Source: a virus. Taken from it: 64,000 nt of DNA. Under the pieces are notes generated by a model that saw nothing but the letters and a program-made list of their open reading frames with translations, did no database searches and was not told where the DNA came from. Below, piece by piece: positions 10,553 through 55,713 of the stretch. Location: positions 1-64,000 of the IMG/VR virus record IMGVR_UViG_3300007609_000013; one strand, given 5' to 3'. A program made the translations under genes and the position numbers. Every line of letters starts with the position of its first letter. Positions within the stretch are counted from its first letter, which is position 1.

Positions 10553-10993
10553 ATGGCTAGAAAATTTGCACAGGGTAAGTTTTATCCTAAAAACCCAAAC
10601 AAATATGTAGGCAAAAAAAATCCAACCTATCGCAGCAGTTGGGAGTGGGCTTTTATGAACTTTTGCGACAACAATCCAGCAGTGCTTCAATGGGCAAGTG
10701 AATCTGTAAGCATACCCTATAAAAATCCATTTGATGGAAGAAACACTATCTATGTTCCAGATTTTTTTATAGTATACACTGATCGCAACGGTGCTAAAAA
10801 CGCAGAGCTTATAGAAATCAAACCAAAAAAACAAACCACACTGGAAGCAGCAGGACGCAGCAAAAAAGATCAAGCCAGTGCAATTCTCAACGCAGCAAAA
10901 TGGCAGGCTGCCAATGCGTATGCTCGACAAAATAGAATTAAATTTAGAGTGGTAACAGAAGAAGAACTATTTCATCAAGGCGGAAAAAAATGA
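10553..10993 (+). CDS. gp4: Head completion protein gp4 (nuclease-like)
   Basis: A 146-residue head completion protein. It has the gp4 signature: YPKNPNKYVG at 11-20, YRSSWEWAF at 26-34, VPDFF at 68-72 and EIKPKK at 88-93. The RSSWE, PD and ExK positions form a PD-(D/E)xK-like nuclease arrangement. In T4, gp4 is needed to finish packaged heads so that tails can join. The last codons overlap the following SGNH gene. Confidence 0.9.
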   Translation: MARKFAQGKFYPKNPNKYVGKKNPTYRSSWEWAFMNFCDNNPAVLQWASESVSIPYKNPFDGRNTIYVPDFFIVYTDRNGAKNAELIEIKPKKQTTLEAAGRSKKDQASAILNAAKWQAANAYARQNRIKFRVVTEEELFHQGGKK

Positions 10994-51932: not shown

Positions 51933-52937
51933 ATGTACGTAGAAGATTACATAGATTTATTAGCAGGAAAGATTGCTTGCGAGCACTGCAACAACTATGA
52001 TATTGTAAAACTTGCAAAATACGATTATAGCCCTGTGAGAAATATTTCTCGAATTGTAGAATCTGACAGAGGACTGTCAGATCGCCAACGAGAACTTGCA
52101 ATAAAAATTGTGCATACCTATCGTCGTCAATTTGCCAAACACGGTTACGACTGTGAGCACGTTGTTGAAAATCCCAAATGGAGAAGTCCACTAAGAACAG
52201 TTGATAGAACCAAGCTGGTTTGTATCAAGGACCACAGGTTGACAGTTAAATTTCCATTTGAACCCACAATGGTAGACCATTTTAGAAATCTACAGAGATA
52301 TAGTTCAGAAAAATATCCTTGGATAGGCGAAATTGAGTGGAACAAAACTGAAAAACACTGGACTTTTTGTTTGACAGAACACAATATGCTGGGAATTTAC
52401 AACCTAACAAAAAATAAAAATTTTGAATATTGTAATAATTTTAACACTATCATAACTAAAATTTTAAAGGTCAAAAAAAGCAAAAACGCTTACCAAATAA
52501 TCTGTGACATTGTGGATGGAAAAATCAAAATACACAATGCCAGTGAAAGTCTGCAACAGTCATTTGATGCACAAGTCACAGGAGACTTGTTGCTGGATAT
52601 CGGGCTTGCCAAACGCTTAGGAGTAAACAAGTATAGTTTGTCTGTGTTAAGATATCTCCGCAAGAAAAATCCTTTGCTGGTAAAACTGGTGGCAAAAAGA
52701 GTTCTGTGGTTTAAAAAATCCAGTTCGTTGCATGAAATAAGTGCACTGGCAGACGATATAGGACTGTTGCCCATGGGGAATCACACACACTATGATCCTC
52801 CAAAATCTGTTTTTTTCAAAGAAACAATCTACGGATTGAAATCAAAATATCTTGAACAAAGGGTATCACTTGTGTTATACTGTACTCAATATGCGCCATG
52901 GGGTATTGAAGACGCATATTACTTGGAAGGTTATTAA
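51933..52937 (+). CDS. Hypothetical protein upstream of uvsW
   Basis: A 334-residue protein that I cannot place. It has an N-terminal Cys pair (KIACEHCNNYD), a Tyr/Arg-rich middle, and a C-terminal helical half. It overlaps the uvsW start by one base and may act with it. Only a weak ribosome site precedes it. An internal promoter for uvsW may lie near its end (TTGAAC at 52852, TATACT at 52876, 18-bp spacer). Confidence 0.7.
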   Translation: MYVEDYIDLLAGKIACEHCNNYDIVKLAKYDYSPVRNISRIVESDRGLSDRQRELAIKIVHTYRRQFAKHGYDCEHVVENPKWRSPLRTVDRTKLVCIKDHRLTVKFPFEPTMVDHFRNLQRYSSEKYPWIGEIEWNKTEKHWTFCLTEHNMLGIYNLTKNKNFEYCNNFNTIITKILKVKKSKNAYQIICDIVDGKIKIHNASESLQQSFDAQVTGDLLLDIGLAKRLGVNKYSLSVLRYLRKKNPLLVKLVAKRVLWFKKSSSLHEISALADDIGLLPMGNHTHYDPPKSVFFKETIYGLKSKYLEQRVSLVLYCTQYAPWGIEDAYYLEGY

Positions 52938-53962
52938 TGGCTACGGCAAAAATTATTGTCAAAGACGAAGTAAACTGTAAGATCGAAGGTCTCGATCTCA
53001 TGGATCGCAAAAAACTTGTGCAGAAGTTCAAGTATGAAGTTCCATATGCAAGACATTTGCCTGCTGTAAAGTTGGGTAGGTGGGACGGAAAAATAGCATT
53101 TTTTCAAATGGGCGGAAGCACATACATCAATCTATTGCCGGATATTTTGCCTTACTTGGACCAAGCTGGATATGATATTGAGCTAGAAGATTACAGAGAA
53201 TACAAAACAGATTTTGAGTTTGAAAAAATCACCGAGCACAGTTACAATGATAGAGTATGGCCGCCAAAGCATCCAGCAGAAGGCCAGCCTATTACACTGA
53301 GAGACTATCAAGTGGATGTGGTTAATAAATTTTTGCAAAATCCACAGAGTCTACAGGAAGTGTCAACAGGTGCCGGAAAAACCATTATGACTGCTGTGCT
53401 CAGCGACCAGTGCGAAAAGTATGGCAGAACAATTGTGATTGTGCCCAACAAGGATCTTGTGAGCCAAACAGAAGCTGATTACAAAAACATGGGACTGGAC
53501 GTTGGAGTGTTCTATGGAAGCAAAAAAGAGTTTGGCAAAACACACACAATCTGCACATGGCAAAGTTTAAACAGTTTGCTTAAAAAGACCAAAAACCAAG
53601 AAGCTCCTATCACAATTGGAGAGTTCTTAGAGGACGTGGTAGCAGTCATAGTGGATGAATGTTTTGATGGAGATACTCTTATTACTACGACTCGAGGCAA
53701 AACGCCTATTAAAAATTTGAAAGTAGGCGATAAAATAATAAATCTCTGCGAAAAAACAAAACAATATAAAGAAGATACCGTTGCCAAAGTTCATAAAAAT
53801 CTAACACACAGCGAAAGTGAAAAGATGTTAGAATTGGAATTTGACAACGGTATAAAAACTCAAGTCACTGCTAATCACAAATTTCTAACAAACAAAGGAT
53901 GGATTAGAGCAGACGAATTAACAGATAATTTAGAAATTATTGACATAAATACATACGGCTAA
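52937..53962 (+). CDS. uvsW: UvsW helicase N-part fused to split intein N-half
   Basis: A 341-residue protein. Residues 1-241 are the N-terminal part of UvsW: the substrate-binding domain (to about residue 100), Q-motif LRDYQVDVV, motif I STGAGKT at 143-149, a TIVIVPNKDLV block, and VVAVIVDE at 234-241. Residue 242 is the Cys of an intein N-half, and the frame stops 100 residues into it. So the helicase is cut exactly between Glu and Cys of the DECH box (motif II). The partner half is encoded at 54871. UvsW unwinds recombination intermediates in T4. Confidence 0.9.
   Translation: MATAKIIVKDEVNCKIEGLDLMDRKKLVQKFKYEVPYARHLPAVKLGRWDGKIAFFQMGGSTYINLLPDILPYLDQAGYDIELEDYREYKTDFEFEKITEHSYNDRVWPPKHPAEGQPITLRDYQVDVVNKFLQNPQSLQEVSTGAGKTIMTAVLSDQCEKYGRTIVIVPNKDLVSQTEADYKNMGLDVGVFYGSKKEFGKTHTICTWQSLNSLLKKTKNQEAPITIGEFLEDVVAVIVDECFDGDTLITTTRGKTPIKNLKVGDKIINLCEKTKQYKEDTVAKVHKNLTHSESEKMLELEFDNGIKTQVTANHKFLTNKGWIRADELTDNLEIIDINTYG
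53660..53959 (+). other. Split intein N-terminal half (100 residues)
   Basis: It begins CFDGDTLITTTRGKTPIKNL (block A) and holds TQVTANHKFLTNKGW (block B with TxxH). The frame ends shortly after, with no C-terminal blocks. This fits the N-half of a naturally split intein. Confidence 0.88.
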
Positions 53963-53975
53963 AGGAGATGTATTT

Positions 53976-54884
53976 ATGGCAAAGCAGTTCGATACGGAAC
54001 GATTTAATAGAATTTTGAGAGAACACAACCAACAACTTCGCGCAGAAAAAATAACTGGTAAGCAAGTTGTTTTATCAAATGGGCTTGTTTTAGATTTGAA
54101 AAAAGAAGTTGATCGTTGTAAAAAAAGAGTTTTGTCAGGACACGATATTTGGAAAAATAATTTCGATCAATTATATTCACTTGATCAACACAAAAGAATT
54201 TCTACAGAAGCAGAATGTAAAAGTTTAATATCAAAAATTGGAGGTATAAACTGTCAAAGAAAGCATGGCGAAAAAGTAAAGTTCAATTTGAATACCGGTA
54301 TTCCGTGGAATAAAGGAACCAAAGGAAATTACCCTTATTCTCATCAACATTCTAAACAGACCAAGGAAAAAATAAGTAATGCCAATCTTGGACAAAAAAA
54401 CGGAATGTTTGGCAAGAAACTCTCTGCAGAACAAAAAGCAGAAAAAAGTAAAAAAATGAAAGAATTAATTTTGTCAGGTAAATTTACTCCTAACTCCAAC
54501 AACAGAAACACTCATTGGGAATCTTTTTATAATAACAAAAAATATAGAAGTTCTTGGGAAGCATTGTATCAGTATTTGGACAATCAGGCAGAATACGAAA
54601 CGCTCAGAATTCCTTATATTTTTGACAATCAAAATTATGTTTACATTGTAGATTTTGTAAACCATGAAACTAAAACAGTAGTTGAAGTAAAACCACAAGA
54701 ACTTATTAATGACAAAAAAACACAGGCAAAAATATCTGCCGCAAAAAAATGGTGCAACGATAACGGATACGTATTTGTGTTAGCAGATAAGAATTATTTT
54801 ATTTCTCGTCCAATACCTAAGGATTTAACAGGGTTTGATATTAAAACTCAAAATAAAATTAGGAAAATTTATGAAATTGGTTAA
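53976..54884 (+). CDS. Homing endonuclease between the uvsW halves
   Basis: A 302-residue protein with a strong AAAGGAG site. A NUMOD3-like DNA-binding repeat region lies at about 108-150 (GIPWNKGTKG, SNANLGQKNGMFG). The C-terminal domain has YRSSWEALYQY at 190-200, VDF with Asp226, and VVEVKP with E237-K239, a PD-(D/E)xK-type arrangement also seen in gp4. Homing endonucleases sit between split-intein halves in known fractured genes. It overlaps the downstream uvsW half by 14 bases. It is AT-rich. Confidence 0.85.
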   Translation: MAKQFDTERFNRILREHNQQLRAEKITGKQVVLSNGLVLDLKKEVDRCKKRVLSGHDIWKNNFDQLYSLDQHKRISTEAECKSLISKIGGINCQRKHGEKVKFNLNTGIPWNKGTKGNYPYSHQHSKQTKEKISNANLGQKNGMFGKKLSAEQKAEKSKKMKELILSGKFTPNSNNRNTHWESFYNNKKYRSSWEALYQYLDNQAEYETLRIPYIFDNQNYVYIVDFVNHETKTVVEVKPQELINDKKTQAKISAAKKWCNDNGYVFVLADKNYFISRPIPKDLTGFDIKTQNKIRKIYEIG

Positions 54885-54975
54885 CAAAAAAGAAATTGAA
54901 AAACCACAAGAAACATATAATTTGCACATAGAACAGGATCATAATTACATTGCAAATGATGCTGTAGTATCAAAT
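54871..54975 (+). other. Split intein C-terminal half (35 residues)
   Basis: It starts MKLVNKKEIEKPQETYNLHI and ends QDHNYIANDAVVSN before the extein Cys at 54976. The terminal Asn and +1 Cys are present. The residue before Asn is Ser rather than the usual His. Confidence 0.87.
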
Positions 54976-55713
54976 TGCCACCAAGCCAAAGCAGATGCTC
55001 TAAAAACACTGCTCACAGGTGTGATGTCGCACATACCCATTAGATGGGGACTCACTGGCACAGTACCAAAGGAAGACTTTGAATTTGTGGGCATTAAAGT
55101 TTCTCTTGGAGATGTGATCAATCGTGTTGCAGCCAGCGATCTGCAAAGCAAAGGCGTGCTGGCAAACTGTCATGTTAATATTGTGCAAATGATTGATCAT
55201 GCCGAGTATCGCGATTATCAAAGTGAACAAAAATACTTGCTCACAGATGATGCCAGATTGGACTACATCAGCACACTTGTACAGGAAGTGAGAAACACAG
55301 GCAATACACTTATATTGGTAGACAGAATCAGCTCGGGCCAGGCACTGGTAGATAAAATACCAGGCGCGGTGTTTATATCTGGCGAAGTAAAAAGCGAACA
55401 ACGCAAAGAACACTATGATGAAATTGCAGACACACAGGACAAAGTGATTGTTGCCACATACGGAGTCGCTGCTGTTGGCATTAATATACCTCGCATCTTT
55501 AATCTTGTGCTTATTGAACCAGGCAAGAGTTTTGTTCGAGTGATTCAAAGCATAGGCAGAGGCGTAAGAAAAGCCAAGGACAAAGACTTTGTACAGATAT
55601 GGGATATCACCAGTACTTGCAAGTTTGCCAAGCGACATTTGACCAAACGAAAACAGTTTTACAAAGAAGCGAACTATCCATTTGCAATTGAAAAGGTAGA
55701 TTGGAAACTATGA
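54871..55713 (+). CDS. uvsW: Split intein C-half fused to UvsW helicase C-part
   Basis: A 280-residue protein from ATG 54871 with TTAGGA upstream; the frame upstream of this ATG lies in the endonuclease. Residues 1-35 are the intein C-half. Residues 36-280 are the rest of UvsW, starting CHQAKADALKTLLTGV, then GLTGTVPKEDFE (motif III SAT-like region), an IEPGKSFVRVIQSIGRGVRK motif VI and a basic C-terminus. Spliced, the two exteins give about 486 residues with an intact DECH box; T4 UvsW has 500-590. Confidence 0.9.
   Translation: MKLVNKKEIEKPQETYNLHIEQDHNYIANDAVVSNCHQAKADALKTLLTGVMSHIPIRWGLTGTVPKEDFEFVGIKVSLGDVINRVAASDLQSKGVLANCHVNIVQMIDHAEYRDYQSEQKYLLTDDARLDYISTLVQEVRNTGNTLILVDRISSGQALVDKIPGAVFISGEVKSEQRKEHYDEIADTQDKVIVATYGVAAVGINIPRIFNLVLIEPGKSFVRVIQSIGRGVRKAKDKDFVQIWDITSTCKFAKRHLTKRKQFYKEANYPFAIEKVDWKL

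Follow-up and report, generated by a model that had tools for sequence, protein, structure and literature searches.

A probable mobile split-intein cassette in motif II of the uvsW helicase gene of a T4-like phage

The broken uvsW locus and its split intein

An interrupted gene of the UvsW-type helicase has been analyzed in a 64,000-nucleotide (nt) stretch of viral DNA (positions 1 to 64,000 of IMG/VR record IMGVR_UViG_3300007609_000013; hereafter, the window), which is part of a 74-kb virus record of a T4-like myovirus. At 52937-55713, three consecutive open reading frames (ORFs) on the + strand encode the first part of UvsW continued by an intein N-half, a nuclease, and an intein C-half continued by the rest of UvsW (Table 1). 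An earlier reading made from the letters alone (the sequence-only reading) had placed the first ORF, the Cys1 codon, the ATG of the C-half and the resumption of the helicase at CHQAKAD, and all these coordinates hold, as does its product of about 486 residues, the computed length of the spliced UvsW being 241+245 = 486 amino acids (aa). Translational coupling of the nuclease and C-half genes is likely, as the C-half start (54871) overlaps the nuclease stop by 14 nt and is preceded by AGGA.

The two exteins occupy adjoining columns of phrog_16, with no gap at the junction, and the joined 486-aa sequence is aligned with T4 UvsW (2oca; E 2e-26, residues 29-475) across the junction, gaplessly and over both RecA-like domains, placing DECH on DECH; the match to the UvsW_N domain (PF21241) is sub-threshold, 19.6 bits at the cut-off of 25.3. 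Among 80 intact intein-free relatives, 79 read through the junction unbroken, the remaining one being an incomplete contig, and the best intact relatives are ~70-74% identical over 485 aa. The alignments confirm that the predicted interruption of the uvsW gene falls in motif II, where it separates Glu from Cys of DE/CH, in agreement with the gene identity, the contiguity of the exteins and the position of the break proposed in the sequence-only reading. Its description of the locus as a fractured gene with a free-standing endonuclease gene between the halves is borne out as well: intact homologues are contiguous, the intein halves are complementary, and the gene between them has its own start and ribosome site and encodes a protein with NUMOD3 and TnsA-like hits.

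Both intein halves score above the NCBIfam cut-offs (intein_Nterm, TIGR01445, 34.5 bits, cut-off 24.5; intein_Cterm, TIGR01443, 24.6 bits, cut-off 15.6), so that the split intein claimed earlier does show intein similarity, and, since the exteins are also contiguous on both phrog_16 and 2oca, the intein call is not due to chance. The class 1 intein signature is complete, comprising Cys1, block B T-x-x-H, the C-terminal Asn and Cys+1. Across 23 aligned N-half sequences Cys1, T70, N72 and H73 are invariant, and Cys1, T-x-N-H, the terminal Asn and Cys+1 are found in all 26 distinct copies, which come from several UvsW lineages. The profile of the 23 N-halves matches solved structures of the Ssp/Npu DnaB, Spl DnaX, NrdJ-1 and gp41-1 inteins and of a DnaE intein, and the predicted structure of a cis homologue from contig L040 is a Hint domain (predicted local distance difference test score, pLDDT, 75), whose fold matches the Ssp DnaB, gp41-1 and NrdJ-1 inteins (Foldseek E 1.9e-8 to 3e-6).

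In the proposed mechanism, the two UvsW pieces would be translated separately, and the intein halves would associate and fold as a Hint domain; attack by Cys1, then by Cys+1, and then Asn cyclisation would yield a UvsW of 486 aa in which the DECH box is continuous. The penultimate residue of the intein is Ser, not the usual His, which is a point against splicing, if a known variation. We consider it very likely that trans-splicing by the class 1 route restores a continuous motif II. Unspliced, the halves would be inactive as a helicase. One may suppose instead that a working helicase forms by non-covalent assembly of the pieces, with the intein halves serving as a mere dimerisation clamp and splicing being unneeded, as in the split NrdA of phage Aeh1; split subunits without inteins can indeed work in phage enzymes broken by homing endonucleases, such as Aeh1 NrdA and phage 25 gp43 (PMC2988022). 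We consider this very improbable for UvsW, as the break sits within motif II itself, the splicing residues are invariant over the 26 distinct copies and are under purifying selection, and among contigs L036-L042 the halves have been re-fused to a cis intein, where splicing is required for a continuous UvsW. The window is a single uncultured viral contig, and an assembly artefact or a decaying pseudogene might be suspected, but we reject both as having next to no probability, since the same structure recurs in isolate genomes as well as in 47 contigs drawn from many samples, the reading frames are open, and the ratio of nonsynonymous to synonymous substitution rates (dN/dS) is low.

Table 1. 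Features of the uvsW locus in the window (first eleven rows) and of derived or additional breaks in related contigs (last three rows).
Feature	Position	Strand	Evidence or detail
First UvsW frame with intein N-half	52937-53962	+	ORF of 341 aa
UvsW N-extein, residues 1-241, ResIII/DEAD domain to motif II, ends ...VIVDE	52937..53659	+	Pfam ResIII 55.5 bits; phrog_16 columns 253-385; 2oca match
Intein N-half, 100 aa, Cys1 codon at 53660, block B T-A-N-H; stop 53960-53962	53660..53959	+	TIGR01445 above cut-off
AGGAG, likely ribosome binding site of endonuclease gene, 8 nt 5' of ATG	53963..53967	+	Sequence inspection
Free-standing endonuclease gene, 302 aa, putative homing endonuclease	53976..54884	+	ORF; NUMOD3 and TnsA-like nuclease domains
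NUMOD3 DNA-binding motif, nuclease residues 123-154	54342..54437	+	PF07460 33.4 bits, cut-off 20.4
PD-(D/E)XK TnsA-like catalytic domain, nuclease residues 208-269	54597..54782	+	PF08722 36.8 bits, cut-off 26.5
AGGA, likely ribosome binding site of C-half gene	54861..54864	+	Sequence inspection
Intein C-half, 35 aa, ends VVSN (Asn precedes Cys+1)	54871..54975	+	TIGR01443 above cut-off; C-halves 94-51% identical at same place in relatives
UvsW C-extein, 245 aa (UvsW 242-486), starts CHQAKAD with Cys+1; helicase C domain, motifs III-VI	54976..55713	+	Pfam Helicase_C 34.8 bits; phrog_16 columns 385-613
Whole mobile cassette, 1316 bp: intein-N, endonuclease, intein-C	53660..54975	+	Same-length cassettes identical between phages with flanking uvsW ~75% identical
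Endonuclease deleted, intein still split, start and/or tail remnants	L016:376-884; L018:1754-2201		
Re-fused cis intein	L036:812-1234; L040:4001-4423		
Second break at GAGK/T by VidaL-like split intein	L027:1538-5945; L040:1672-5158; also L007, L013, others		

Recurrence and mobility of the cassette

The same intein is observed at the same DE/CH site in 47 IMG/VR contigs (L002-L048). These carriers were found by an intein search, while looking only for close relatives of the endonuclease gave one contig, probably owing to the variability of the exact peptide patterns. The same fracture is present in Salmonella phages S16, STP4-a and SEA1 and in Proteus phage PM2; in the annotation of the S16-type and PM2 loci, a hypothetical gene separates two helicases and the intein is unnamed. 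As the S16/PM2 intein is ~61% identical to that of the window, compared to ~25% for the helicase exteins (and 40% for the nuclease), the element has crossed phage groups. A more distant version of the uvsW fracture occurs in Prevotella phage Lak-B4 (L058:4001-6512), with an in-frame TAG within the C-half, which would fit the TAG recoding of Lak phages.

On the extein tree, carriers and non-carriers are interleaved, with 13 changes. For L004+L021 and L011+L022, sister pairs on the extein tree, the intein data reject a clade (approximately unbiased, AU, test p 2.8e-5 and 1e-67, respectively), and the extein data reject the intein group of the window (AU p 1.5e-38), these p values being indicative, as the groups were picked after viewing the trees. 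In L027 and L032 the cassettes are identical at 1316 of 1316 positions, with the uvsW flanks only 78% identical upstream and 72-86% downstream; the cassettes of L021 and L022 have eight mismatches per 1316 positions, and the flanks are 74-79% identical. Synonymous divergence is 0.00-0.17 in such shared cassettes, compared to 1.4-2.3 or saturation in the adjacent exteins, and the identity decays within ~30 nt on the upstream side of the cassette and within a few nt on the downstream side. Since an identical 1316-bp block is found in phages whose flanking uvsW is ~75% identical, the cassette moves as one unit, which by these comparisons is the intein N-half, the nuclease and the intein C-half with very short co-conversion. 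Homing elements are expected to have vacant counterparts in close relatives and to pass between diverged alleles; both features are observed, and we regard it as highly probable that the cassette is such an element. Low dN/dS, mostly ~0.05-0.25 in the intein and the nuclease where synonymous change is informative, indicates that both are under selection.

Homing would proceed in mixed infections, where the 302-aa NUMOD3/PD-(D/E)XK protein would cut intein-free uvsW alleles at or near motif II, and repair from a carrier would copy the intein N-half, the endonuclease and the intein C-half in a single block, co-converting a very short stretch of flank. That stretch would supply the Cys+1 codon, so that the cassette could invade DEVH alleles, and co-conversion of a non-splicing +1 residue does have a precedent in archaeal MCM-d inteins (PMC10643990).

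The distribution of the +1 residue bears on this possibility. It is Cys in all 26 distinct carriers, and in the 80 nearest intein-free relatives, Val (75), Thr (3), Ala (1) or Cys (1), so the box of the latter is mostly DEVH. Hence, of the earlier claim that splicing rebuilds the DECH box, the continuity of the box after joining stands, but DECH as the native box does not: since the nearest intein-free relatives are mostly DEVH, Cys+1 is not simply a native residue restored. The stronger statement that all close intein-free relatives are without Cys+1 was rejected, as about a dozen intein-free DECH relatives exist, and Cys is enriched with the intein but not exclusive to it. When independent tree pairs on well-supported branches are compared, five link Cys to the intein, none opposes the link, and three show no difference (sign test p 0.06). 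The clearest matched alleles, occupied L016 and empty L129, share 99% identity along 2.1 kb that begin just after the Cys codon; the differences are concentrated at the site, which reads GTGGATGAA followed by TGCCAC in the former and GTTGACGAA followed by GTACAT (DEVH) in the latter. The simplest reading is that in this pair the cassette would have supplied its own nucleophile codon, changing Val to Cys. The window carries the same GTGGATGAA followed by TGCCAC as L016, but its Cys+1 may or may not have come with the cassette, since the near intein-free relatives of its lineage include both Val and Cys.

The nuclease, its loss and a second break

In the 302-aa nuclease, the NUMOD3 and TnsA-like PD-(D/E)XK domains both exceed the Pfam cut-offs, and the group I intron endonuclease model is sub-threshold. 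Across 18 nuclease sequences, E195, E208, D226 and E237 are invariant and K239 is sometimes replaced by Arg; E195, D226 and E237-x-K/R are candidate active-site residues. The catalytic part is 31% identical (E 5e-10) to the gp4-like head-closure nuclease that the phage itself encodes (window 10553-10990), which hints at a shared origin of the two. We have not adopted the Vsr-like (EDxHD) class for this protein, as there is no Vsr family among its Pfam or NCBIfam matches and its fold match to I-Bth0305I is weak (E 0.25). In other T4-like phages a related nuclease separates the two parts of broken terL genes, and this fits a nuclease family specialised in split-gene cassettes. For instance, the two terL pieces of Yersinia phage TG1 (L140:1929-4778) flank a TnsA-like nuclease of this family, and extra residues at the break hint at an atypically split intein.

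We consider the encoded nuclease to be quite likely the homing enzyme for the uvsW DE/CH site. Four points weigh against this: the target site would follow from the gene position; a profile search of the PDB gave no sequence match for the nuclease; its Foldseek matches are weak, none at E < 0.001 (TnsA, 1f1z, has probability 0.89, but E 0.17); and some carriers (L016-L018, L034, L036-L040, L042) are without it. Alternatively, the nuclease gene might be a passenger or have another role, with ordinary homologous recombination, or some other nuclease, moving the cassette, which would agree with the weak fold match, with the similarity of the catalytic domain to the head-closure nuclease, and with the fact that some nuclease-less carriers, such as L016, look recently invaded. 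We find it unlikely, since the nuclease family is constant in its place (37 of the 47 contigs, S16 and PM2) and recurs in broken terL genes, NUMOD3 is a DNA-binding motif of homing endonucleases, the candidate catalytic residues are invariant, and identical blocks with short conversion tracts are a homing signature.

The ten contigs without the nuclease retain the intein either split (L016-L018 and L034) or with the halves fused in one frame (the remaining six), and, as these carriers have lost it, the nuclease is not needed for splicing. L016 and L017 keep the first 26 nuclease codons and the tail, while L018 and L034 read from the intein N-half into the last nuclease codons; the remnants in L016 and L018 directly demonstrate nuclease loss from the split state. 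In the fused cis forms (L036-L040, L042), which constitute a single frame, the C-half ATG is replaced. They lie among split forms on both the intein and extein trees, with support too low to prove the direction.

A second uvsW break, in Walker A (GAGK/T), is observed in 10 relatives, and only the C-part of its intein in six more; in the window, Walker A of UvsW is intact. This intein is atypically split (N-part ~28 aa, C-part 135 aa), and its C-part matches VidaL (E 2.2e-8) and gp41-1. A different nuclease lies between its parts in L027 and L040, so that uvsW of L027 consists of five ORFs, three UvsW pieces and two nucleases, and in L007 the first UvsW piece continues into its nuclease in one frame. 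In L046 (1527-6284), a distant UvsW is hit three times: by a LAGLIDADG-type cis intein near Walker A, by the DE/CH cassette, and by a GIY-YIG-like ORF splitting the C-extein.

Taken as a whole, the account of a mobile split-intein cassette in uvsW motif II, trans-splicing and homing by its nuclease, is one that we hold with high confidence. We lean, more cautiously, towards its extended form, in which the 1.3-kb cassette would home as a unit into an ATPase motif and install its own nucleophile (DEVH to DECH), and in some relatives an unrelated VidaL-like split intein would sit in Walker A too, so that two orthogonal split inteins, one per ATP-binding motif, would have to join three polypeptides into UvsW.

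The window also encodes tail sheath, terminase large subunit, SSB, UvsX, the gp4-like head-closure nuclease, primase and a DnaB-type helicase, and a search of it revealed no further inteins of the uvsW DE/CH family. A 334-aa ORF (51933-52937) adjoins uvsW upstream, terminating on its ATG; it has no confident family match, and some relatives have weakly similar ORFs (25-31%) in the vicinity of uvsW.

Comparison with known systems

Of the papers on inteins and UvsW that we read, which did not include Dassa et al. 2009, none describes a UvsW intein; the arrangement is of a known kind, a fractured gene, and these papers seem to contain no account of the uvsW gene and site, of the nuclease type or of the comparative series. 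The phage fractured genes of Dassa et al. 2009 (NAR 37:2560) reportedly comprise eight types of conserved enzymes interrupted by a split intein whose halves flank an endonuclease gene. The layout is the same as in the window, but here the gene is uvsW, broken at DE/CH, and the nuclease is of the NUMOD3 and TnsA/gp4-like PD-(D/E)XK type, whereas theirs is said to be Vsr-like.

What the uvsW site adds is a near-complete natural series, empty, occupied with the endonuclease, endonuclease deleted, remnant, and halves re-fused in cis, which informs on how split inteins move, decay and revert. A whole broken-gene cassette is seen moving as a unit, with an intein that may bring its own +1 nucleophile; matched empty and occupied alleles are available for a homing assay, about two dozen natural split inteins are supplied, and cultured S16-type phages could be used for tests of the mechanism.

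Closest by site, intein family, nuclease family and gene order are uvsW genes of S16, STP4-a, SEA1 and PM2, which differ in having T4-type UvsW, only ~25% identical, with the DECHLATGK box. By profile and fold, the nearest solved relatives of the intein are gp41-1, NrdJ-1 and the Ssp/Npu DnaB inteins, sharing the Hint fold and class 1 residues, but residing in other host genes and sites, with the DnaB inteins in cis. Pseudomonas phage MIJ3 likewise has a replication gene in two pieces, with an endonuclease gene separating the two parts of a split intein (PMC6892783), but the gene is PolB, the intein starts with Ser, and the nuclease is HNH. The uvsW gene of T4 is associated with the homing endonuclease SegE (PMC2988022), which, unlike the window nuclease, is GIY-YIG, intergenic and without an intein; S16 also has a separate homing endonuclease upstream of uvsW. 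Finally, in haloarchaea the invasion by MCM-d inteins sometimes needs a co-converted +1 residue, Pro to Ser (PMC10643990), compared to Val to Cys here, although the MCM-d intein is archaeal and contiguous, with its own nuclease domain.

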